A stretch of 64,000 nt of DNA from Gottschalkia acidurici 9a (lineage in GTDB: Bacteria > Bacillota > Clostridia > Tissierellales > Gottschalkiaceae). This document shows positions 3,018 to 15,347 of the stretch, in pieces. The notes below the pieces were generated by a model, which saw nothing but the letters and a program-made list of their open reading frames with translations, was not told the DNA's origin and did no database searches. Every line of letters begins with the position of its first letter. The stretch's first letter is position 1. The position numbers and the translations under genes were made by a program. The stretch lies in NCBI RefSeq assembly GCF_000299355.1, contig NC_018664.1, forward strand, positions 741,115 to 805,114, read 5' to 3'.

Positions 3018-5443
3018 TAATAAAAGGGCTTATATTATCTTCATTTGGAAAATTTAAAGGGAAGAAATTAGTACTAGACGAAGGTCTAAATGTAGTATAT
3101 GGTGAAAATGAAGCAGGAAAAACCACTATACACAAATTTATAGAGGGAATGTTCTTTGGTTTTTTCAAACCTTACTCTAAAAGAAGAACATATACTGAAG
3201 AATATAACAAATACTTTCCAATGGATCAGAATGAATACTATGGAATCCTAAAATATAAATATAATGAAAAAACATATAGAATAGAAAGAAATTTCACTAA
3301 GGAAAATAGCGATTTAAAAGTCTTTGATGATGAAACAGGAGAAGATCTAACTCATATGTTTGAATACGATAGTGTATCTAGACTACACAATCCAGCATCT
3401 ATACATATGAACCTAAATAGAATAGTATTTAAAAATACTATAAGTGTAGGTCAGTTGGATAGTAAGACAGACAAAGAACTAGTAAAAGAAGTAAAGGATA
3501 GTCTGATAAATCTTGGAGGTAGTTTAGATGAAGATATATCAGTAAAGAAAGTACTAGAAAAGCTAGAAAAACAGATAAATGATATAGGAACAGAGAAAAG
3601 AGTAAAGACTTCTCCATATGGAAAAATAGCAGATGAAATAGCTATTTTAGAGAATGAAAAGAGGAGCGCACTGTTAACTTTGAATGAAATAGATAAGTTT
3701 TTAGATGAACTCAGTATTATTAAAATAGATATGGAATCTAATATAAATAAAAAAAATGAATTAAAAGAAGAACTCAAGAAGTTAGGAAGAGAAGAACGAT
3801 ATAGAAACTATATAGATATAAAAAAACTTTTACAAGAAATTGATGAACTAGAAAGAGAAACTAGTCTGCTTTCAAAATATAATGAAATATCAACAGAAGA
3901 CTATACTGAAATTATAAAATTAAACAGCTCTATAGAATCATTAAAAGAAAGAAGAGAATCTTTAGTAAATAAAGAAAGAGCACTGCAAAAAGAAATAAAT
4001 TTATTAAATGGTAGATTTGGAGAATTGTCAGAAAAGGCTATAGACAATAATATAAAACTTGATTTATATACTTATGAAGAAATAGAAAGAGAACTAAAAG
4101 ACTTAAAAGAAAATAATAAAACAACCGACTTAACGAATTATAAAGAAGAGTTAAAATGTGTAGAAATAGAAAAGAAAAAGTTAAAAGGTCTTAAGATAGC
4201 TTCTTTAGTAATATTGGTGGCAGTATTAGCACTAGGAATAATAAACTGGAAGATATCAATGATAGGAATTTTATTTATACTATTAACTATATATTGTTTT
4301 AAAAAAGAAAAAGAGCTAGATTTAAAAGCAGCAAATACTAATAGATGTATAATGGATATAGAGACTAAAGAAAAAGAAGTGAATACTAGAATTGAAAATG
4401 CAGAGTCAGAGATGACATCTATACTCCGTAAATATAATACTAGCTCAAAGATAGACTTAAAAATGAAAATTGATGAATATGATAATGACTATGAACTAAG
4501 ATATAAATATAATGAGGTTAAAAAGCAAAAAGAAGAATTAAAAGTAGAAATAGCAGAAATAAATGATATTTATGAAGGAACAGAGGAAAATAGAGATTAT
4601 ATTTTAGGGAAAAACAAATTAAAAGATATACAAGAGTTTAAAGATGCATTAGAAAAAAGAAATGAATATAAAAATTTAATAACTATATTAGATAGTAAAA
4701 TGCTTATATTAAAAAATATGAAAGAAAATAAAGACATAAATGAGTTAGAAAAGGAATTTAGAAACTTTGACATTGAAGAAACTAGTATAAATAAAATAAC
4801 ATTAAGAGAAAAAGAAGATATAAATAAAGAAATAAGTATATTAGAAGAAGATATTGAAGAAAAAAAAGATAAAAGTGCTAGATTAGAAGAAAAAATAAAA
4901 AATTTACAGCAAAGTGCAAGAAACATCTTATATATAGAAGAAGATATTAATAAAAAGGAAAACGAAAAGCAGAAATATGAAGAAGAGTTAACGGCATTAA
5001 ACTTGGCAAAGGATACTATAAATAAAGTATCTGTAAATATCCAAAGAGATTTCTCTCCAAAATTAAATAATATAGTATCTAATATATTAAGCTCAATAAC
5101 TAATGATAAATATAAAGATGTAAAGATAGATGAAAATTTAAATATAAAAGTAGTAGATACTAACGATAAACTTGTAAGTATTGAAAATCTAAGTGGTGGA
5201 ACAATAGAACAAATCTATCTTTCGATTAGACTAGGAATAAATGATGTTATAAATGGGGACGAAAAGTTACCATTAATACTAGATGATTCATTTATACAAT
5301 ATGATGAAACTAGACTTACGAATATATTGAATTTTTTATATAGAGAAAGCCAAACTAGACAAATTATAATATTTACATGCCAAAAAAGAGAAAAAGAAGT
5401 TATAGATAGATTAAAAATAAAGCATTCATTTATAGAAATATAG
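3014..5443 (+). CDS. SbcC/Rad50-like ATPase with central membrane segment (YhaN type)
   Basis: This is an 809-residue SMC/Rad50-type ATPase, partner of the preceding nuclease. The P-loop GENEAGKTT lies at residues 30-38. Very long charged coiled-coil stretches flank a hydrophobic hairpin at about residues 395-430, the membrane-associated region typical of YhaN rather than SbcC. The C-terminal half carries the signature LSGGTIEQ, the Walker B LPLILDDSF and a switch segment IIIFTC. It overlaps the nuclease gene by 4 bases. The complex is expected to process DNA ends or blocked replication intermediates at the membrane. Its A8 runs (for example near 3749) are in frame, which matters for the homopolymer pattern described elsewhere. 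Confidence 0.87.
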   Translation: MIIKGLILSSFGKFKGKKLVLDEGLNVVYGENEAGKTTIHKFIEGMFFGFFKPYSKRRTYTEEYNKYFPMDQNEYYGILKYKYNEKTYRIERNFTKENSDLKVFDDETGEDLTHMFEYDSVSRLHNPASIHMNLNRIVFKNTISVGQLDSKTDKELVKEVKDSLINLGGSLDEDISVKKVLEKLEKQINDIGTEKRVKTSPYGKIADEIAILENEKRSALLTLNEIDKFLDELSIIKIDMESNINKKNELKEELKKLGREERYRNYIDIKKLLQEIDELERETSLLSKYNEISTEDYTEIIKLNSSIESLKERRESLVNKERALQKEINLLNGRFGELSEKAIDNNIKLDLYTYEEIERELKDLKENNKTTDLTNYKEELKCVEIEKKKLKGLKIASLVILVAVLALGIINWKISMIGILFILLTIYCFKKEKELDLKAANTNRCIMDIETKEKEVNTRIENAESEMTSILRKYNTSSKIDLKMKIDEYDNDYELRYKYNEVKKQKEELKVEIAEINDIYEGTEENRDYILGKNKLKDIQEFKDALEKRNEYKNLITILDSKMLILKNMKENKDINELEKEFRNFDIEETSINKITLREKEDINKEISILEEDIEEKKDKSARLEEKIKNLQQSARNILYIEEDINKKENEKQKYEEELTALNLAKDTINKVSVNIQRDFSPKLNNIVSNILSSITNDKYKDVKIDENLNIKVVDTNDKLVSIENLSGGTIEQIYLSIRLGINDVINGDEKLPLILDDSFIQYDETRLTNILNFLYRESQTRQIIIFTCQKREKEVIDRLKIKHSFIEI

Positions 5444-6649: not shown

Positions 6650-7621
6650 ATGGAAGGACTATTAACTTTTTTATTAATTTTTTTAATCGTCATCATTGTT
6701 GTATCTAGAAATATCAGAATAGTACCACAAGCCACAGCATACGTTATTGAAAGATTAGGTGCGTATCAAGGAACATGGGATGTTGGACTTCATGTGAAAA
6801 TTCCACTAATAGACAGAGTGGCTAATAAAGTTTCATTAAAAGAACAAGTTGTGGATTTTCCACCGCAACCAGTTATAACTAAAGACAACGTAACTATGAA
6901 GATAGATACAGTAGTATACTACCAAATAACAGACTCAAAGCTTTACACTTATGGGGTAGAGCAACCTATATCAGCTATAGAAAATATAACAGCTACAACA
7001 CTTAGAAATATAATAGGGGATTTGGAGCTAGACGAAACACTTACATCAAGAGATACTATAAATACTAAAATGAGAAGTATACTAGACATTGCTACAGATC
7101 CTTGGGGCATTAAAGTAAATAGGGTAGAACTTAAAAATATAATACCACCTTCAGAAATTCAAGATGCAATGGAAAGACAGATGAAGGCAGAGAGAGAAAG
7201 AAGAGAATCTATATTAAGAGCAGAAGGAGAAAAGAAATCTTCAATACTAGTTTCAGAAGGTAGAAAAGAATCTGCTATATTAGAAGCTGAGGCTGAAAAA
7301 GAGTCAGCAATTCTTAGAGCAGAAGCTAAAAAAGAAGCAACTATAAGAGAAGCAGAAGGTCAGGCTGAAGCTATTTTAAAAGTACAACAAGCAACAGCAG
7401 AAGGTCTTAGAATGTTAAATGAAGCAAAACCAACTAAAGAAGTTATATCATTAAAAAGTTTAGAGGCATTCGAAAAGGCTGCAGATGGAAAAGCAACTAA
7501 GATTATAATACCATCTGAGATACAAGGGTTAGCAGGGCTTGCTACTTCACTTAGTGAGATTGTGAAAGAGGAAAAAGAAGAAAGTGTAGTAGAAGAAAGT
7601 AAAAAGGATAAAAAACAATAA
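6650..7621 (+). CDS. SPFH/stomatin-like membrane protein (QmcA type)
   Basis: This protein has one N-terminal transmembrane helix (about residues 4-19), then a PHB/SPFH domain with IVPQATAYVIERLG and KIPLIDRV, then a long Glu/Ala/Lys coiled coil made of repeated AEGEKKSAIL-like units (about 190-250). The C-terminal tail is charged. Members oligomerise as membrane-microdomain scaffolds, and the adjacent NfeD protein is the usual partner. The ATG directly follows the nfeD stop and uses the GGAGG at the end of nfeD. The 323-residue length is normal. Confidence 0.9.
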   Translation: MEGLLTFLLIFLIVIIVVSRNIRIVPQATAYVIERLGAYQGTWDVGLHVKIPLIDRVANKVSLKEQVVDFPPQPVITKDNVTMKIDTVVYYQITDSKLYTYGVEQPISAIENITATTLRNIIGDLELDETLTSRDTINTKMRSILDIATDPWGIKVNRVELKNIIPPSEIQDAMERQMKAERERRESILRAEGEKKSSILVSEGRKESAILEAEAEKESAILRAEAKKEATIREAEGQAEAILKVQQATAEGLRMLNEAKPTKEVISLKSLEAFEKAADGKATKIIIPSEIQGLAGLATSLSEIVKEEKEESVVEESKKDKKQ

Positions 7622-7649
7622 ATTTATAAATATATGATGTAATTAAGAA

Positions 7650-7699
7650 AATGCCCTATAAGATATACAATATAAAATAGTATATTTTATGGGGTATTT
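7650..7699. repeat. Imperfect hairpin in repeated agr intergenic unit, copy A
   Basis: The sequence beginning ATGCCCTATAAG folds imperfectly with GTATATTTTATGGGGTAT. The bases before it match the bases before the perfect hairpin at 10241, both being TATATGAT followed by TAATTA and an A-rich step. The intergenic unit therefore seems to have been duplicated with the neighbouring genes. It may end the stomatin transcript. Confidence 0.55.
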
Positions 7700-7741
7700 A
7701 TATGTATATTGTCAATAAAAGAAGAATTTTGACTATAATAA

Positions 7742-7770
7742 TTGTGTTTAGAATACTTTTCCAATATAAT
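7742..7770 (+). promoter_or_regulatory. Promoter of the first agrA-like gene
   Basis: TTGTGT, 17 bases, then TATAAT, followed by TAGAA. The same -10 block recurs at 10352 and 12477 in this island. Confidence 0.65.
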
Positions 7771-7807
7771 TAGAATTATAGATGCACTAATATATAGAGG
7801 TGATTTA

Positions 7808-8521
7808 ATGGCTAGAATATTAATTGTAGAAGATGAAAGTATAATTGCAAAAGGATTAGCAAGAATTATAGAAAGTATCGATGATGAACTGGAGGTAGAT
7901 ATAACAGGTTATGCTGAAGAAGCTCTAAAGTACACTAAGATAAATGAATACGATGCATTTTTAATAGATATTCAGCTTAAAGATTACTCAGGATTTGAAC
8001 TATCTAAGGAAATAAGAAATATAGACATATATAAAATGACCCCTATTATATTTATTACTGCAATTCCATCAAGAGAACTTATGGCTTTTAAAGAAATACA
8101 TTGTTATGACTATATAGTAAAACCTTTTTCAGAAGAACAAGTAAGAGCAGCACTAGAAACAGTAATTAATTATGGAATTAGGAATGAAGATAAAAAAGAG
8201 AGCCTTAAGTTAGATCAAGGTGGATATTCTTACATTGTGGAGCAAGATGAAATCGTCTATGTTGAAGCTAAGAATAGAAAACTAGTAATTACAACTATTA
8301 ATGAAACTATAGATATATCTGGGTATACATTGTACAAGCTCATAGAAGAATTAACAGATGATTTTATACAGTGCCATAGAGGATATATAGTTAATGTAAA
8401 TTATATTACAAAAGTAGATACGGCAAACAATCTTATAGATCTTAAGCATACAGACCTACCAATACCTATAGGAAGAAAATATAAAGATTGTCTGAGAGGT
8501 AAAATAAATGAGTATAATTGA
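7808..8521 (+). CDS. agrA: AgrA-like LytTR response regulator, copy 1
   Basis: This is a two-domain response regulator: a receiver domain (about 1-120) with phosphoacceptor Asp54 in FLIDIQL and the conserved Lys105 in VKPF, then a LytTR DNA-binding domain (about 140-235) ending in PIGRKYKDCLRGK. It would be phosphorylated by an AgrC-type kinase and bind paired 9-bp repeats. Translation is taken from the ATG at 7808, which has AGAGGTGA upstream. An open frame extends back to 7742, but that lies inside the promoter. The end overlaps the start of the decayed receptor gene by 14 bases. It is closely similar to the second regulator at 12520. Confidence 0.85.
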   Translation: MARILIVEDESIIAKGLARIIESIDDELEVDITGYAEEALKYTKINEYDAFLIDIQLKDYSGFELSKEIRNIDIYKMTPIIFITAIPSRELMAFKEIHCYDYIVKPFSEEQVRAALETVINYGIRNEDKKESLKLDQGGYSYIVEQDEIVYVEAKNRKLVITTINETIDISGYTLYKLIEELTDDFIQCHRGYIVNVNYITKVDTANNLIDLKHTDLPIPIGRKYKDCLRGKINEYN

Positions 8522-9312
8522 TGGAATTATATTTTCAATACTAGATAATATAGAATATGTAATTATCTCCCATAAATTAATAAGTGGAGATAAAAAAATT
8601 AAACTTAAAACGAAAAAACCCTAATTATATAGTGTAGTTATATTAATACAAGCAATAATGATGGGGACTTCAAGTGAATATCTAATAAGCGTATATAGTC
8701 AAAGGATATTATCAGCAACTTTGTTGATATGTATGACATTTTTATTATATAGAAGAAAGCTAAAAGAAACTATATACATATATGTTATTACAACAATAAT
8801 TATGATGTTAATTCAGTTTGGTGTTTTTGTAACATTCAATCATTTAGGAAAAGATTTAATGCTTAATTTTAAAGATGGAATGACTGCTCATTCTATGATA
8901 TTGCCGTTAAGTATCATGGTCAAAAAGTACATACCGATTGATGTCATGTTTAATTACATAAACAAAAAAATAAAATATTTGACTGTTTAGTATTAAATGC
9001 ATTCATTATGCTAATATCTTTATTAGCATACTGGTATATAGATATTGATGGTATTTTTGAAAATGTAGCTGCTATAACTATTATTCTTATATTTATTGTT
9101 GTAGTTAATTTTATAATTATAAAGAATGGGCTAAAGAATAAGCTAGAAGAGGAAAAACTTAAAACTTATGAAGGATACCTACCTTCTGTAGATAAAACTG
9201 TAAAGAAACTTAGAAAAAACAACATGAGTGTGACAATCATATTCAAAAGTTAAGAATGCTTGCACTCACAAATCAAGAAAATGAGAAGATAGAAGAAAGT
9301 AGTGATGATTAA
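8508..9312 (+). pseudogene. Decayed AgrC-like receptor lacking an ATPase domain
   Basis: Translation from the ATG at 8508 gives MSIIDGIIFSILDNIEY, matching the other receptors, then an in-frame TAA near 8624. The membrane domain resumes in the same frame and breaks at an A7 run (8964-8970), where one more A would restore NKNKIFDCLVLNAF. It breaks again at an A6 run (9214-9219), where the paralogue at 11510 has A7 and reads RKKQHECDN. After correction the protein would end about 25 residues past the histidine, at 9312, without an ATPase domain, like the three intact short receptors. It overlaps the regulator as the full-length receptor overlaps its own regulator. Confidence 0.8.
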
Positions 9313-9375
9313 TTTTTAATATAATTTAATGAATCATTAAGGTAAAAATATAAGGGAGTATACGAGATTAAATAA

Positions 9376-10209
9376 ATGGGACTAATAGAATCTATTATAA
9401 TGAGTACACTTGATGTCTTAGAATACATAATTATATCAAGTAAATTAATACAAAAAGATAATATATGTAATCATAAAAATAGTAAAGTAATACTGGGTAT
9501 ATATATTCTAGGATTTGCTTTAGCTATATCATTCTTTGCTAAATACATAGCTGGAAAGTATAGTATAGTTACGTCAGGAATCTTACTTGTAACTATGACT
9601 TTTTTTGTATACAGAAGAAAAATAAAAGAGACTATATATACATATATAATTACTATGATAGTAATTATATCAATACAATTTTCTTCGATAGTATTACTTA
9701 GAATCTTTATAGTAGACCTAGATTATAGTTTTACAAGTGGAATTTTCGTTCATATTGTTACATTGTTTTTGACTAGTATTATATACATGTATGTACCTAT
9801 TGACATGATATTTAAATATGTAAATAGAGATAATAAAGTTTTTAAATTATTAGTGCTAAATATGTTCATTATATCTATTTCAATATTACTATACTGGTAT
9901 GTAGATGTTAATGGAGTATTCCAAAATATAGCCTTTTTAGCAGCTATTTGTTCAGTGATATTTGTTATAAACCTTATATTGTTGAAGAATGGACTTAAAA
10001 ATGACATAGGGGAACAAAAACTCAAATCTTATGAAGGATATTTACCAGTCGTTGATAAAGACCTTAGAAAGAAACAACATCAGTGTGATAACTACATTCA
10101 AAAGTTAAGAATGCTTATAATTACAAGTGAAGAGAAAGGAAAAATTATCGATATTGATGCTATAAATAAAAAAGATATAAAAGAGGAAAATAAAGAAATT
10201 GAGAATTAA
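9376..10209 (+). CDS. AgrC-like receptor without kinase ATPase domain, copy 2
   Basis: This 277-residue protein has about six transmembrane segments across residues 1-205, including an LYWYVDVNG stretch shared by all paralogues. A helix follows with the histidine-box sequence RKKQHQCDNYIQ (His about 235), then a short charged tail. The N, G1 and G2 boxes of a HATPase domain are absent and no remnant of them follows the stop. It should sense or bind a ligand at the membrane and keep the phosphoacceptor/dimerisation helix, but it cannot phosphorylate itself. The final 40 residues are rich in Ile, Lys and Glu. The function is inferred from its likeness to the full-length receptor at 13221. Confidence 0.8.
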   Translation: MGLIESIIMSTLDVLEYIIISSKLIQKDNICNHKNSKVILGIYILGFALAISFFAKYIAGKYSIVTSGILLVTMTFFVYRRKIKETIYTYIITMIVIISIQFSSIVLLRIFIVDLDYSFTSGIFVHIVTLFLTSIIYMYVPIDMIFKYVNRDNKVFKLLVLNMFIISISILLYWYVDVNGVFQNIAFLAAICSVIFVINLILLKNGLKNDIGEQKLKSYEGYLPVVDKDLRKKQHQCDNYIQKLRMLIITSEEKGKIIDIDAINKKDIKEENKEIEN

Positions 10210-10240
10210 TAAACTAACAATTATATGATATAATTAGAAA

Positions 10241-10287
10241 AATGCCCCTTAATATGATATTTTTATAATATCATATTAAGGGGCATT
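10241..10287. terminator. Perfect 20-bp inverted repeat between receptor genes
   Basis: 10241-10260 pairs perfectly with 10268-10287 around a 7-base loop. It lies after the copy-2 receptor and before the copy-3 promoter. The T-rich side is weak on the plus strand (TTTACG), so it may act as a terminator or an RNA-stability element. Confidence 0.6.
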
Positions 10288-10328
10288 TACGTTTACATGA
10301 TATAAAAAATTTTATATTGCTATCTTGA

Positions 10329-10357
10329 TTGCATTTTTAGCCTTTCTTAAATATAAT
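10329..10357 (+). promoter_or_regulatory. Promoter of the copy-3 receptor
   Basis: TTGCAT, 17 bases, then TATAAT. The whole segment closely matches the promoter of the second agrA-like gene (12454-12482), including TTAAATATAATTAGAA. Confidence 0.65.
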
Positions 10358-10444
10358 TAGAATCATGATAGATAATTTTGTCTAAATAAAAGTTCAAGAA
10401 TTTTTGTAAGAAAAAATGAAAAAAATTATAAAAAAGGAGAAACT

Positions 10445-11278
10445 ATGGGATTAATAGAGTTAATTGTAATGGCTATGTTTGATGTAGTTCAATACATTAT
10501 TTTATCAGGTAAACTAGTACATGATAGGGATGTATATACTTCTAAATTAAATAGACTGTTACTTTGTATATGTTTTTTAGGATTTTCACTATCTATAGGA
10601 TTTTCTTCATACCTTTTAGATGGCAAATATAATATCTTTGTTTCAGGACCTTTGCTTATGTTTATGACTTTTTTAATATATAGAAGGAAGATAAGGGACA
10701 CAATTTACGTATATGGAATTACTTCGATAATGATGATAATAATTCAATTATCCGTTCCAGTTTTACTTAGAATGGTTAGCGTAGAGCTAGAATTTAACTT
10801 TAAATCTGGTCTTCTTGCTCAAACTGTTACGTTGTTTTTAGCTATCATTATAGCTTTATATGTACCAGTTAACTCTATGTTTAAATATGTAATCAAAGGG
10901 AATAAAGTCTTCAAGTTTTTAGGATTAAATGTATTTATCATATTAGTATCACTATTGATGTACTGGTATATAGATATAGATACTATACTAAAAAATATAG
11001 CTATAGTATCTATTGTTCTTATATGGACTATCCTAGTCAATTTTATAATATTAAAGAATAGTCTTAAAAATGAAATAAAAGAACACAATCTCAAAGCTTA
11101 TGAGTCATACTTACCAGCTATAGATGAATTAATAAAGGATGTTAGAAAGAAGCAACATGAATGTGACAATCATATTCAAAAGTTAAGAATGCTTGCAATC
11201 ACAGGTGAGGAGAATGAAGAAATTATCGACAGTGATATTATAAAGAAAGAAGATATGAAAAGAAATTCAATAGAGTAA
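10445..11278 (+). CDS. AgrC-like receptor without kinase ATPase domain, copy 3
   Basis: This 277-residue paralogue has the same plan: multiple membrane helices, the conserved LMYWYIDIDT segment, and the histidine helix RKKQHECDNHIQKLRML with His about 238, then a 35-residue charged tail and stop. No ATPase domain is present. It starts MGLIELIVMAMFDV behind AAAAAGGAG. It has its own promoter about 90 bases upstream, so it can be expressed independently of copy 2. Its membrane domain is the closest relative of copy 4, consistent with recent tandem duplication. Confidence 0.8.
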   Translation: MGLIELIVMAMFDVVQYIILSGKLVHDRDVYTSKLNRLLLCICFLGFSLSIGFSSYLLDGKYNIFVSGPLLMFMTFLIYRRKIRDTIYVYGITSIMMIIIQLSVPVLLRMVSVELEFNFKSGLLAQTVTLFLAIIIALYVPVNSMFKYVIKGNKVFKFLGLNVFIILVSLLMYWYIDIDTILKNIAIVSIVLIWTILVNFIILKNSLKNEIKEHNLKAYESYLPAIDELIKDVRKKQHECDNHIQKLRMLAITGEENEEIIDSDIIKKEDMKRNSIE

Positions 11279-11509
11279 GATAAAAAGTTGATGAGAAATA
11301 AATTAAGAAGTATATAGCGGACTAGACGACTACCATTAATATAAGTCAGAAATATATACTAACTCTACAGATTTGATTTAGTATTCTAAATACTAGACTT
11401 ATAGAATAAAAGGTTTACTACAGCTGAATATTCTAGAAAACTTTATCTGAGTGGCGCTTTAAGGTTTCTACCAAGATGAAAGTAAAAAGTTTTATCAAAG
11501 GGTGAAGTT
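11279..11509. other. Intergenic region between receptor copies 3 and 4
   Basis: This 231-base gap holds no open frame of useful size, no clear terminator and no agrD-like peptide. The only clear signal is the site before the copy-4 ATG (AAAGGGTGAAG). Confidence 0.3.
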
Positions 11510-12328
11510 ATGGGATTATTAGAATTAATTATAATGGCTATGTTTGATGTAGCTGAATACACAATTGTATCATATAAACTAATATATGATGATATGCATA
11601 GTTATAAATTAAATAAATTATTGCTTGGCTTATATTTTATTGGGTTTTCGCTAGCTATAGGATTTTCTTCGTATCTTTTAAACGGTAAATATAATATATT
11701 TGCATCATGTCCGTTAATTATTATTATGTTTTTCTTTATATATAGAAGAAAAATAAAAGAGATAATATATTTATATGGAATTTCTACTGTAATGATGATT
11801 ATTATTCAATTTGCCTCTATAATTCTATTTAGAATTTTTAGCGTCGAGATTGGGTTTAATTTTAAATCTGGACTTCTTGCTCATACAGTTACATTACTCA
11901 TAATTTTTACTATAGTTTTATATGTACCTATTAACTCTATATTTAGATATGTAAGAGAAGGTAACAGGGTCTTTAAACTTTTAGTATTAAATATTTTTAT
12001 TATAATAGTGTCATTATTATTCTATTGGTATGTAGATATTGATAGTATATTAAAAAATGTAGCCATAGTAGCCATCATTCTTGTTTGGACTATTTTAGTT
12101 AATTTTATAATATTAAGGAATGGATATAAAAATCAAGTAGAGGGTGAGAAGCTTAAGGCCTATGAGGGATACTTACCAACTATAAATGAACTCATAAAAA
12201 ATCTTAGAAAAAAACAACATGAGTGTGATAATAACATACAAGTATTAAGAATGACAATAACTGAAAATGAAGATTATAAAAAGTCTGATTATAGTGAAGC
12301 TAAAAAAGAAAATGGAAAATTTAAGTAG
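11510..12328 (+). CDS. AgrC-like receptor without kinase ATPase domain, copy 4
   Basis: This 272-residue receptor keeps about six membrane helices and the histidine helix RKKQHECDNNIQVLRM (His about 237), then a charged tail ending in KENGKFK. Its A7 run before the histidine box is intact and shows what the decayed first copy lost. It is not followed by any kinase-like sequence; the next gene is the second agrA-like regulator with its own promoter. The role is inferred to be peptide binding or heterodimerisation with the full-length kinase. Confidence 0.8.
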   Translation: MGLLELIIMAMFDVAEYTIVSYKLIYDDMHSYKLNKLLLGLYFIGFSLAIGFSSYLLNGKYNIFASCPLIIIMFFFIYRRKIKEIIYLYGISTVMMIIIQFASIILFRIFSVEIGFNFKSGLLAHTVTLLIIFTIVLYVPINSIFRYVREGNRVFKLLVLNIFIIIVSLLFYWYVDIDSILKNVAIVAIILVWTILVNFIILRNGYKNQVEGEKLKAYEGYLPTINELIKNLRKKQHECDNNIQVLRMTITENEDYKKSDYSEAKKENGKFK

Positions 12329-12453
12329 TAATAAGCTAAAGTATAAATAATAAAATTAGAATTATTTATCTAATATTGAGAGCATAAAAAGTCTATTTTT
12401 AAAAGTATTTGTTCATATTTGACATAAAAAGAACCTTTTTATCGAGATATTAA

Positions 12454-12482
12454 TTGCATTTATAATGTTTTTTAAATATAAT
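12454..12482 (+). promoter_or_regulatory. Promoter of the second agrA-like gene
   Basis: TTGCAT, 17 bases, then TATAAT, followed by TAGAA. It is nearly identical to the block at 10329-10357. Confidence 0.65.
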
Positions 12483-12519
12483 TAGAACTGCAAGTGCTAT
12501 AAGATATAGAGGTGATTTA

Positions 12520-13230
12520 ATGGCTAAGGTACTAGTCGTAGAAGATGAGAGCATAGTAGCAAAAGGATTAGCAACTATTGTTAGAAGTATTGATGATACA
12601 TTAGAGGTCAATATAACTGGATATGCTGAAGAGGCTTTAAAGTACGCGAATATGGAGTATTATGATATGTTTTTACTAGATATTCAACTTAAAGACTATT
12701 CGGGGCTTGAATTAGCTAAAGAGATAAGGAACATAGATATCTATAAAATGACCCCTATTATATTTATTACTGCAATTCCTACAAATGAGATTATGGCTTT
12801 TAAGGAAATACACTGTTATGATTATATAATAAAACCTTTTAGAGAAGAACAAGTAAGAACAGCATTAGAAACTGTAATCAATTATGGAATTAAGAATGAA
12901 GATAAAAAAGAATATCTTAGACTAGATCAAGGAAGGTATTCTTATAGTATAGATCAAAATGAAATTATTTATGTCGAAAGTAAAAGCAGAAAGTTAATAA
13001 TTACAACTATTAATGAAGCTTTTAAAATATCTACGTACACACTATATAAGCTTTTAGATGAGTTATCAGAAAGTTTTATTCAGTGCCATAAGAGCTATAT
13101 AATTAACATGAATTATATTGAAAAGATAGATACAGTAGATAATTTAGTAACGCTTAAAGATATAGAAACATCAATACCAATAGGAAGAAAATATAAGGAT
13201 AGCTTGAGAGGGAAGACACAATGTCAATAA
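12520..13230 (+). CDS. agrA: AgrA-like LytTR response regulator, copy 2
   Basis: This 236-residue response regulator has a receiver domain (MAKVLVVEDES, phospho-Asp about 54 in LLDIQL, Lys about 105 in IKPF) and a LytTR domain ending PIGRKYKDSLRGK. It is strongly similar to the regulator at 7808 and uses the same AGAGGTGATTTA ribosome site. Its last 10 bases overlap the start of the full-length AgrC-like kinase, the classic coupled pair. It is the best candidate for driving the repeats upstream of agrB. Having two regulators suggests the regulator-receptor unit was duplicated. Confidence 0.87.
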   Translation: MAKVLVVEDESIVAKGLATIVRSIDDTLEVNITGYAEEALKYANMEYYDMFLLDIQLKDYSGLELAKEIRNIDIYKMTPIIFITAIPTNEIMAFKEIHCYDYIIKPFREEQVRTALETVINYGIKNEDKKEYLRLDQGRYSYSIDQNEIIYVESKSRKLIITTINEAFKISTYTLYKLLDELSESFIQCHKSYIINMNYIEKIDTVDNLVTLKDIETSIPIGRKYKDSLRGKTQCQ

Positions 13231-14512
13231 TTGAATCAATTATAATGACAATGCTTGATGCGATAGAGTATATAATTATATCAGGTAAGTTAATAAGTGG
13301 TAACAAGGTATATGACCTTGAAAAAGGGAAAATACTGTTCTATATTAAAAATATTTTAGTATTATCAATCATAGTGGGAATATTGGGTGAATTTCTACCC
13401 GGTAAATATAGTATGGTGGTAATATCAGTGATATCAACGGTACTTATTACATTTGTACTTTATAGGAAAAAATAAAAGAAACTATTTATATATATTTGAT
13501 TAGTATGATAATTTTTTTACTGATTCAATTTGTAGTCTTAATAACTTTAAATCATTTAGGCATAGAATTAGATAATAGTTTTAATGATGGACTTACAGCA
13601 CATACTATTATATTGCCAATAACTATTGCTATAAGTAGACTTTTACCAATTAATATAGTGTTTAATTATGTCAATAAAGATAATAGAGTATTTAAGTATT
13701 TGTCCCTAAACATATTTATTATACTAATATCTTTACTTGCATATTGGTATATAGACGTTAATGGAGTCTTGAAAAATATCATTGCTATAGCTGTTGTGCT
13801 GACATGGGTTATTTTAGTAAACTTTGTGTTACTGAAGAATGGACTTAAAAATGAGTTGGAAGAACAGCAATTAAGGATTTATGAAGAGTACTTGCCAGTT
13901 ATTGATGAACTTATAAGTGAAATCAGAAAAAGACAGCATGAATTCGATAATCATATACAGGCACTAAAGATGATTACAGTAACAAGTGAAGATTATGAAA
14001 GTGTTATCGGATCTATGAAACATTACATGAGAGATTTAGAAGTTACTAATGACTTAAAAGATTTAATTAAAATTGATAATAAAATATTAGCTGGATTTTT
14101 ATATAATAAAATTAAAAATGCTGAGAAACTGGACATTCAATTTGATATTATAATACAAGACTATGAATTTAATACTGGTCTAAAAGATTATGAGGTAGTT
14201 GAAGTTATGGGGAATTTAATTAATAATGCATTTGAAACTAACATAGAAAATAACTCTGTTATACTTATAATATCAAAAGAAAAAGATATGAATGTTATTG
14301 AAATTAGAAATAAACATCCATATCTAAAAAAAGAAAATCTAGATAAAATTTTTAGTAAAGGATTTTCTACTAAATCCTCTACTGGAAGAGGATATGGCTT
14401 GTACAATGTAAAGAAAATAGTTGAAAAATATAATGGGAAAATTGAGATATTAAACAAATCATATCGTGATGAAAATTATGTTGTTTTTAAGGTGCTATTT
14501 GTTAGAAAATGA
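13221..14512 (+). pseudogene. agrC: Full-length AgrC-like sensor histidine kinase, interrupted by a one-base frameshift
   Basis: Two open frames, 13221-13475 and one resuming from about 13473 (first listed start 13496), together encode a roughly 430-residue AgrC-type kinase if one A is added to the A6 run at 13467-13472. A TAA follows the run immediately. The joined protein has the membrane domain, the histidine box RKRQHEFDNHIQ (His about 240), an N box NLINNAFE and a G box GRGYGLYN. It is the only receptor in the island with an ATPase domain. It overlaps agrA copy 2 by 10 bases. It may be a true mutation, a phase-variable or slippery tract, or a sequence error. Confidence 0.82.
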
Positions 14513-14653
14513 GTTTTTTAATAGATCAGGATACTCTGGCTCACCCCATAAACCAAGACAATTTACGTAAGTAGTTATTAAAGGTACCATTAAAATTAAA
14601 AAGCTACATATAGTTCTTAAAATTTTTTTAAACATTGGGTTTAAACTTTTCAT
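14495..14653 (-). CDS. agrD: AgrD-like autoinducing peptide precursor
   Basis: This 52-codon gene begins MKSLNPMFKKILRTIC and overlaps the end of agrB, with GGAGG six bases before its ATG. It has the three AgrD parts: an amphipathic, basic N-terminal leader (about 1-23), a core around TTYVNCLGLW (27-36), and an acidic proline-containing tail GEPEYPDLL (37-45) resembling the conserved AgrD recognition tail. By family analogy AgrB cuts after Trp36 and joins it to Cys32, giving a five-residue CLGLW thiolactone ring, possibly with a short N-terminal tail. It is convergent with the kinase gene, overlapping its last 18 bases on the opposite strand. Confidence 0.82.
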   Translation of the reverse strand: MKSLNPMFKKILRTICSFLILMVPLITTYVNCLGLWGEPEYPDLLKNSFSNK

Positions 14654-15206
14654 AAACAATGCCTCCTTTTGCTATCAATATTTGAATACACTGTAAAGAC
14701 ATAGCCCATATAGCATTAATAAAATATGAATTATTACTTTTAAAAAAGTACATTAAAAAATGAATAAGGATAAATGATATACCTGTTATTTTAAATTGCA
14801 TCCTCTTCGCATAAGAATAATCAGGTCTAGATTTTCCACACACTGGAGCCATAGTTATAGTTATAAGTATAGATAATATAAATAAAATAGTTACTATTGA
14901 ATGATTAAGAGCAATGTTATTCTTTAAGAATATAGATATGCAAAAGAAAAAGGCAGAGAATATTAAGCATCCAGTATATGTTTTTAAATGTAATCCTCCT
15001 GTAAATATCCTTATTGATAATAAAGATAAGAAAGAATAAATAAAATCTTTTCTGTATCCTAATACTGAGAATAAAAAAAACAGTATTAGAAGTTTAGATA
15101 GATTACCGGTTATAAGTTGCAATGAATATTTTAACTTAGCACTGTCAAGTTCAGAAAGATTAAACTCATTTTCGCAGTATTTATGAAATTTATCTACAAT
15201 AATCAC
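14628..15206 (-). CDS. agrB: AgrB-like peptide-processing cysteine protease
   Basis: This is a roughly 192-residue integral membrane protease of the AgrB family. The catalytic pair lies in RIFTGGLHLKTYTGC, the His and Cys being seven residues apart as in AgrB. Several hydrophobic helices follow. It cleaves the AgrD tail and forms the thiolactone. The GTG at 15206 is preferred, with GGGTGA about 6 bases upstream; the open frame extends to a GTG at 15215 without a good site. It is co-transcribed with agrD, which overlaps its 3' end, and faces the receptor cluster convergently. Confidence 0.88.
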   Translation of the reverse strand: MIIVDKFHKYCENEFNLSELDSAKLKYSLQLITGNLSKLLILFFLFSVLGYRKDFIYSFLSLLSIRIFTGGLHLKTYTGCLIFSAFFFCISIFLKNNIALNHSIVTILFILSILITITMAPVCGKSRPDYSYAKRMQFKITGISFILIHFLMYFFKSNNSYFINAIWAMSLQCIQILIAKGGIVYEKFKPNV

Positions 15207-15279
15207 TAAAATCACCCATTATCTATTGTATTTTTATTATCAATATACCATAGAATATAGGGTTATAAACACAAACGGG

Positions 15280-15347
15280 ATGAACGACACGTTTAGACGT
15301 ATGAATGACATGTATGAACGACATGTTTAGATGTATGAACGACAAAA
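15280..15347 (-). promoter_or_regulatory. LytTR-like (AgrA-type) direct repeats upstream of agrB
   Basis: Two 34-base units (15280-15313 and 15314-15347, about 28 of 34 identical) each carry two TGAAYGACA elements. The four elements start at 15281, 15302, 15315 and 15336, so each pair is spaced 21 bases start to start, matching AgrA-type 9-bp repeats separated by 12. On the agrB strand they read TGTCGTTCA or TGTCATTCA. A weak promoter (TATATT at about 15243-15248, poor -35) lies downstream, as expected for an activator-dependent promoter. Confidence 0.65.

Follow-up and report, generated by a model that had tools for sequence, protein, structure and literature searches.

The island described here lies in a 64,000-nucleotide stretch of the contig of the soil clostridium Gottschalkia acidurici 9a (positions 741,115-805,114; hereafter the window, within which all positions are counted) and combines the genes of an agr quorum-sensing locus with an array of AgrC-like receptors, three of which (S1, S2 and S3) are intact open reading frames (ORFs) that end shortly after the phosphoacceptor histidine. 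At the level of sequence, the comparisons show the truncation of these receptors, their common descent, their selective maintenance and the duplication of a promoter-like element. Tentatively, the best reading of S1-S3 is that they pair with a full AgrC, now or until recently, as regulatory dimer partners that lack a kinase of their own. The initial annotation of this DNA had recognized the short receptors and suggested that they act as decoys, as members of mixed dimers or as acceptors of phosphate; the observation is partly confirmed and mostly right, and the interpretation as a whole is partly supported.

Structure of the short receptors

One decayed AgrC-like copy (D0) and three intact short ORFs follow one another in the island (Table 1), as first annotated, and the predicted stop some 25-45 residues past the conserved histidine was measured at 42 residues in S1, 39 in S2, 35 in S3 and 28 in D0, which, though decayed, ends in the short form too. 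S1-S3 retain the polytopic N-terminal sensor of AgrC and, aligned over the whole sensor and the first helix of the DHp domain (helix 1), are 28-49% identical to full-length AgrC-type kinases from the same order. The H-box histidine on helix 1 is invariant across all aligned members including S1-S3, and the motif Q-H-x-x-D-N-x-I-Q with this histidine is invariant in all the short copies. A structure model of a short receptor has about seven helices, then a single helix (181-256) that passes through the H-box, and a low-confidence tail; Foldseek against the PDB gave nothing significant.

The remainder of the kinase is missing. In Staphylococcus aureus AgrC, helix 1 extends from L205 to I252 around H239 and the second DHp helix (helix 2) from M257 to N287 (PMC6755735), so that helix 2 starts at H+18. 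Judged by these spans, S1-S3, which end at H+35 to H+42 in a non-homologous tail of low confidence, have lost both helix 2 and the ATPase domain. None of the three had a significant Pfam or NCBIfam match, HATPase models included, and the N and G boxes are present only in the second part of the fifth receptor gene (F5b). Searches with the ATPase region (tblastn and blastn) against 7601-13200 returned chance matches only and hence no in-frame or frameshifted ATPase remnant between the genes, which bears out the annotated lack of this domain. The same searches rule out a split kinase, in which the ATPase would be encoded further downstream by another ORF or in another frame. Likewise, an ATPase missed through sequencing error after each short gene is ruled out by the absence of remnants and by the tails and stops that the copies have in common.

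The H-boxes of the short copies carry derived residues. All four have cysteine at H+2 and lysine or valine at H+8, where the full kinases have phenylalanine or tyrosine and nearly always alanine, respectively; the aromatic residue at H+2 is thus lost from every short copy. In S1 the H-box (HQCDNY) additionally lacks the H+1 acid, and a stretch of three residues immediately preceding the histidine is deleted.

Selection on the short genes

The short genes have diverged at 25.5% (S2-S3) and 31.5% (S1-S2) of aligned nucleotide sites without a stop or a frameshift in their 272-277 codons. Simulated neutral drift to half the S2-S3 distance introduced about 7 stops per gene, and the frame stayed open in only about one run per 1000 (P ~0.001). 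The ratio of nonsynonymous to synonymous substitution rates (dN/dS) in the sensor is 0.27-0.49 among the short genes versus 0.29-0.64 among the full kinases and F5, and in helix 1 it is 0.12-0.15 among the short genes with bootstrap upper bounds below 0.56, values that are rough given synonymous sites near saturation and a helix 1 of only about 40 codons. By this measure S1-S3 clearly resemble functional kinases. Relaxed selection or inactivating lesions, the marks of a pseudogene, are absent from S1-S3 and present in D0, and a chance or pseudogene origin of the three open frames is ruled out by the simulation together with dN/dS. The proposal that sensor-only AgrC paralogues are kept as working proteins is supported by the open frames, the kinase-like dN/dS, the derived H-box residues and the promoter-like element found at RR1, S2 and RR2, where RR1 and RR2 are the two response regulators of the island.

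Origin by truncation and duplication

Repeats D1-D6, at 60-79% identity, show duplication and not chance. Repeat D3 runs through the short C-terminus (60-80%), so the short tails are repeated at the DNA level. In the sensor tree the five paralogues form one lineage-specific clade (94/93). Within it S2 pairs with S3 (99/98), S1 attaches to this pair (99/94) and D0 groups with F5 (96/93). The helix-1 region of D0 is 64-75% identical to those of S1-S3 versus 55% to that of F5; D0 hence looks mosaic, its sensor being F5-like and its helix 1 S1-S3-like. The shared tails and the shared derived residues at H+2 and H+8 point to a truncation that preceded the tandem duplication.

The promoter-like element with its 17-nt spacer is common to the regions 5' of RR1, S2 and RR2, which suggests that S2 may once have had a regulator promoter copy ahead of it and that co-expression of the units may persist. 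The ancestral unit would have comprised a promoter, a LytTR regulator and an AgrC gene, with agrBD in convergent orientation, and its duplication would have taken place within the lineage of G. acidurici. A single AgrC copy would then have shed everything past helix 1, and this short form would have multiplied into D0 and S1-S3.

Distribution among relatives

The survey covered over 600 whole genomes, 249 from the order and 391 from the class (a sample overlapping that of the order), together with 80 loci from named genomes; genome contigs were scanned with a profile of the family alignment, and a scan with the short-only alignment returned nothing. A homologue is present in 22 of the 249 order genomes, the window genome included; the intact ones are full-length and a few copies are broken. 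No other intact sensor-only member was found in the order genomes, the class genomes or the named loci, and the remaining short matches cover only part of the profile. The relatives share the layout of regulator, AgrC and convergent agrB(D), with a similar AgrD-like peptide. In Tissierella, Anaerosalibacter and further relatives (L063, L061, L010) the order RR2-F5-agrDB is alike, where checked, and the AgrD-like peptide has the WGEPECP motif as in the island. Unlike the island, loci of the Tissierella/Anaerosalibacter type have one complete receptor of 422-427 residues and no array. The annotation would have taken the array as refuted if related genomes had only a full-length kinase at each position; the relatives do carry only such kinases, which makes the array a lineage-specific derivative and does not remove it.

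Broken AgrC copies in relatives include an ORF truncated by a transposase-like gene (L043, genome G240), a copy with one internal TAA (L037, G052), one with an internal deletion (L016, G009) and fragments (L050, L056 and L060, G245). In Anaeromonas frigoriresistens (L068), the AgrC ORF is shortened, and the start of agrB is apparently fused to agrD. By their sequences, the AgrC copies of these relatives have been broken independently. A mirror image is seen at L071-L140 (mostly Lachnospiraceae), where many proteins of about 283 residues have an H-box and an ATPase domain and hardly any sensor domain.

Kinase-less membrane proteins also lie directly beside agrD-agrB at two other agrBD loci of the window genome, L177 (genome C2, 237000-242000; genes at 1040-1882 and 3186-4013) and L178 (C2, 1509000-1515000; 1049-2023). 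These proteins of 275-281 residues have no significant Pfam or NCBIfam match, and their family has matches in 5 of the 391 Clostridia genomes besides the window genome, with agrB-like genes nearby in several. Like S1-S3 they are of about 280 residues, with seven transmembrane segments, a short cytoplasmic tail and a position beside agrD-agrB, but they have no H-box. They are possibly a second class of kinase-less Agr receptors; a relationship to S1-S3 is unsupported (hhalign probability 0.1%).

Organization of the island

On the + strand the genes follow the order RR1, D0, S1, S2, S3, RR2 and F5, after which agrBD lies convergently on the - strand. The flanks are a gene that we ourselves read as SPFH-type on one side and the trp operon with a T-box leader on the other. 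The placement of the receptors in one island with two LytTR regulators and an agrBD pair agrees with the Pfam matches (Response_reg and LytTR, E 1e-18 to 1e-20; AgrB, E 1.5e-31). The island thus contains agrB, agrD and AgrA-type LytTR regulators, two of them here, and agrB, agrD, RR1 and RR2 are intact. The agrD-like peptide has no NCBIfam match and is assigned from position and motif; its WGEPECP-type motif recurs in Tissierella, Anaerovirgula and Anaeromonas, there too in AgrD-like peptides encoded next to AgrC.

Table 1. Features of the agr island, with positions in the window
Feature	Description	Position	Strand	Basis
P-RR1	promoter-like element TTGTGT - 17 nt - TATAAT	7742..7770	+	consensus match only; aligned with elements 5' of S2 and RR2
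RR1	receiver + LytTR response regulator	7808..8521	+	Pfam Response_reg 6e-20, LytTR 2.7e-18; 73% identical to RR2
D0	decayed short AgrC-like pseudogene, overlaps RR1 end	8508..9312	+	
S1	short AgrC-like receptor, 277 aa, H-box RKKQHQCDNYIQ, ends H+42	9376..10209	+	
Hairpin	terminator-like 20-bp perfect hairpin, S1-S2 gap	10242..10286	+	
P-S2	promoter-like element TTGCAT - 17 nt - TATAAT	10329..10357	+	matches RR1/RR2 elements; repeat D11
S2	short AgrC-like receptor, 277 aa, H-box RKKQHECDNHIQ, ends H+39	10445..11278	+	
S3	short AgrC-like receptor, 272 aa, H-box RKKQHECDNNIQ, ends H+35	11510..12328	+	
P-RR2	promoter-like element TTGCAT - 17 nt - TATAAT	12454..12482	+	matches RR1/S2 elements
RR2	receiver + LytTR response regulator	12520..13230	+	Pfam LytTR 1.1e-19, Response_reg 2.2e-19
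F5a	N-terminal sensor part of full-length AgrC; stop just after A-run 13467-13472	13221..13475	+	
F5b	remaining sensor + DHp + HATPase of full-length AgrC, other frame than F5a	13496..14512	+	HATPase_c 8.2e-14, HATPase_c_5 4.4e-11
agrD-like	peptide gene (...TYVNCLGLWGEPEYPDLLK...)	14495..14659	-	position and motif
agrB	peptide-processing protease	14628..15215	-	Pfam AgrB 1.5e-31

Two further elements lie beyond agrB. An imperfect 31-base direct repeat with a spacing of 34 bases (ATGAACGACAyGTTTAGAyGTATGAAyGACA) occurs 5' of agrB at 15280-15344, and the T-box leader of the trp operon (Rfam RF00230; 15656-15978) is ordinary.

Proposed role as kinase-less dimer partners

A conserved sensor and a conserved helix 1, combined with a missing helix 2 and ATPase domain, are fitted best by a dimer partner that has no kinase of its own. 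The short proteins would sit in the membrane with about seven helices running into a long cytoplasmic helix that bears the H-box, and would bind the peptide of the locus or variants of it. Through the transmembrane region and helix 1 they may pair into mixed dimers with one catalytic domain or none, and such dimers may dampen the response or retune it, along with the specificity for the peptide. Peptide binding, heterodimer formation and the direction of the effect we infer; mixed dimers or dampening by the short receptors are plausible. AgrC acts as a dimer (PMC6755735). A precedent comes from Corynebacterium glutamicum, where the effect of a ChrS pseudokinase without its CA domain needs the DHp domain and not its histidine, and native ChrS and HrrS heterodimerise (PMC9491836).

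Compared with the canonical agr locus (AgrBDCA), the island likewise has AgrB, AgrD, an AgrC-type membrane sensor and LytTR regulators. It differs in the four added AgrC paralogues without helix 2 and ATPase domain, in its two regulators, in an agrBD pair that is convergent rather than collinear, and in a full-length kinase that is frameshifted. Receptors without a working catalytic domain, as in S1-S3, are found in the CA-frameshift variant of ChrS and in DivL. The ChrS variant is thought to act via another kinase, but it originated in laboratory evolution and, unlike S1-S3, keeps the whole DHp domain; DivL is an unrelated cell-cycle protein, and neither of the two is a tandem array of quorum receptors. 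A literature search, to which most subscription journals were out of reach, found no description of natural AgrC arrays without ATPase domains.

Several points weigh against a role as dimer partners. Heterodimers of truncated ChrS itself were not detected (PMC9491836). The tails after helix 1 are poorly conserved, and the three-residue deletion in helix 1 of S1 might disturb the pairing of S1 with F5. To date the array is a feature of one species, represented by a single genome. D0, with an in-frame nonsense codon (8622-8624) and two frameshifts at A-runs (about 8964-8970 and 9214-9219), is by its sequence a genuine pseudogene, and part of the island is decaying. Finally, F5, the sole candidate partner, is split in this assembly into two frames at an A-run (13467-13472).

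State of the full-length kinase

The fifth gene had been annotated as the one receptor with an ATPase domain. It is indeed the only gene bearing HATPase_c (E 8e-14), but it is not intact as sequenced, and its frameshift leaves the premise of one full kinase without proof from the sequence. The HATPase match, together with the match of the family profile to the S. aureus AgrC kinase module 6e52 (E 9.8e-12), supports the AgrC label. A single undercall at its A-run, or bypass by slippage, would leave F5 intact in the organism and would give a normal agr circuit with extra short receptors, which qualifies the dimer-partner explanation and is not an alternative to it. This is a real possibility: the genome of strain 9a was assembled from 454 Titanium pyrosequencing with Sanger gap closure (PMC3519856), the lesion is single and falls in an A-run, and the ATPase part is highly conserved (70% identity to Tissierella, dN/dS 0.15).

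The background of such lesions is low, however. A scan for frameshift junctions in 464 kb of the genome (20 sampled stretches) flagged four besides F5, of which two are at A-runs. In the window, whose ORFs of at least 150 residues contain 151 A/T runs of 6-8 bases, it flagged no further one. The two A-run junctions are in an acetyltransferase-like gene (L163:6115) and in dnaX (L155:3176; genome C2 near 103,176), each interrupted at an A7 run. That of dnaX is possibly a programmed frameshift or else a 454 error; programmed frameshifting is known in other dnaX genes. Beforehand, a random undercall at the F5 A-run is unlikely, and a random mutation there is unlikely too; D0 next to it is a true pseudogene. 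On balance the F5 frameshift is probably real. The partner would then have been lost recently; should F5 indeed be inactive, the array would either have been orphaned lately or signal without a kinase.

Alternative roles

A decaying agr system would account for the island differently: duplicated truncated receptors would have been useful until recently, F5 would just have been lost, D0 would be dead, and S1-S3 would be next, now functionless. The nonsense codon and frameshifts of D0, the F5 frameshift, the loss of part of the S1 H-box and the broken AgrC copies elsewhere in the order (G052, G245, G009, G240) agree with this. It is nevertheless unlikely, as the 272-277 codons of S1-S3 are free of stops at 25-32% divergence, their dN/dS is kinase-like, consensus promoter-like elements persist, and both regulators are intact along with agrB and agrD.

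The short receptors could also be decoys that bind peptide as homodimers or as mixtures among themselves, and that, making no contact with the kinase, reduce the supply to F5 or protect the cell against Agr peptides of foreign origin. Multiple copies without a catalytic part would suit such a sink, as would purifying selection on the complete sensor, which exists in three diverged versions. Helix 1, the histidine and its neighbours included, is apparently constrained at least as much as the sensor, and this counts against a pure peptide sink, which needs no helix 1; the decoy role is rather less likely than decay.

Transfer of phosphate in trans, from the ATPase domain of F5 to the conserved histidine of a short receptor and on to RR1 or RR2, was among the first proposals and is weakened to the point of being improbable. 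In its favour are the invariant histidine and its surrounding motif and the low dN/dS of helix 1; in S. aureus AgrC, helix-1 residues 242, 244, 245 and 248 are reported to contact AgrA (PMC6755735). A short chain alone cannot form the four-helix DHp as helix 2 is absent; furthermore, the acid at H+1 is lost in S1, the aromatic at H+2 is lost in all the short copies, and the proposed donor is frameshifted.

Least probable of all is docking of the LytTR regulators on helix 1 of the short receptors in a peptide-dependent manner, by which the regulators would be held or released without phosphorylation. Two intact regulators are adjacent, helix 1 is conserved and, in S. aureus, is reported to touch AgrA (PMC6755735), and F5 is apparently broken. 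If the F5 frameshift is both real and stable, control of both regulators by peptide-bound short receptors via the histidine helix alone is conceivable, though very improbable. Regulator docking normally uses both DHp helices, and we know of no AgrC that signals by such kinase-free docking.

Implications

For the reading of S1-S3 as kinase-less dimer partners, the claim is limited by the single genome and by the state of the sole full kinase. Peptide quorum receptors are treated as complete kinases that work as homodimers. Receptors arranged in a row and retained by selection despite the loss of the catalytic half would represent a natural modulation of quorum sensing at the level of the receptor, with dominant-negative or specificity-shifting subunits, and such modulators would arise by the duplication route that has been proposed for two-component systems.

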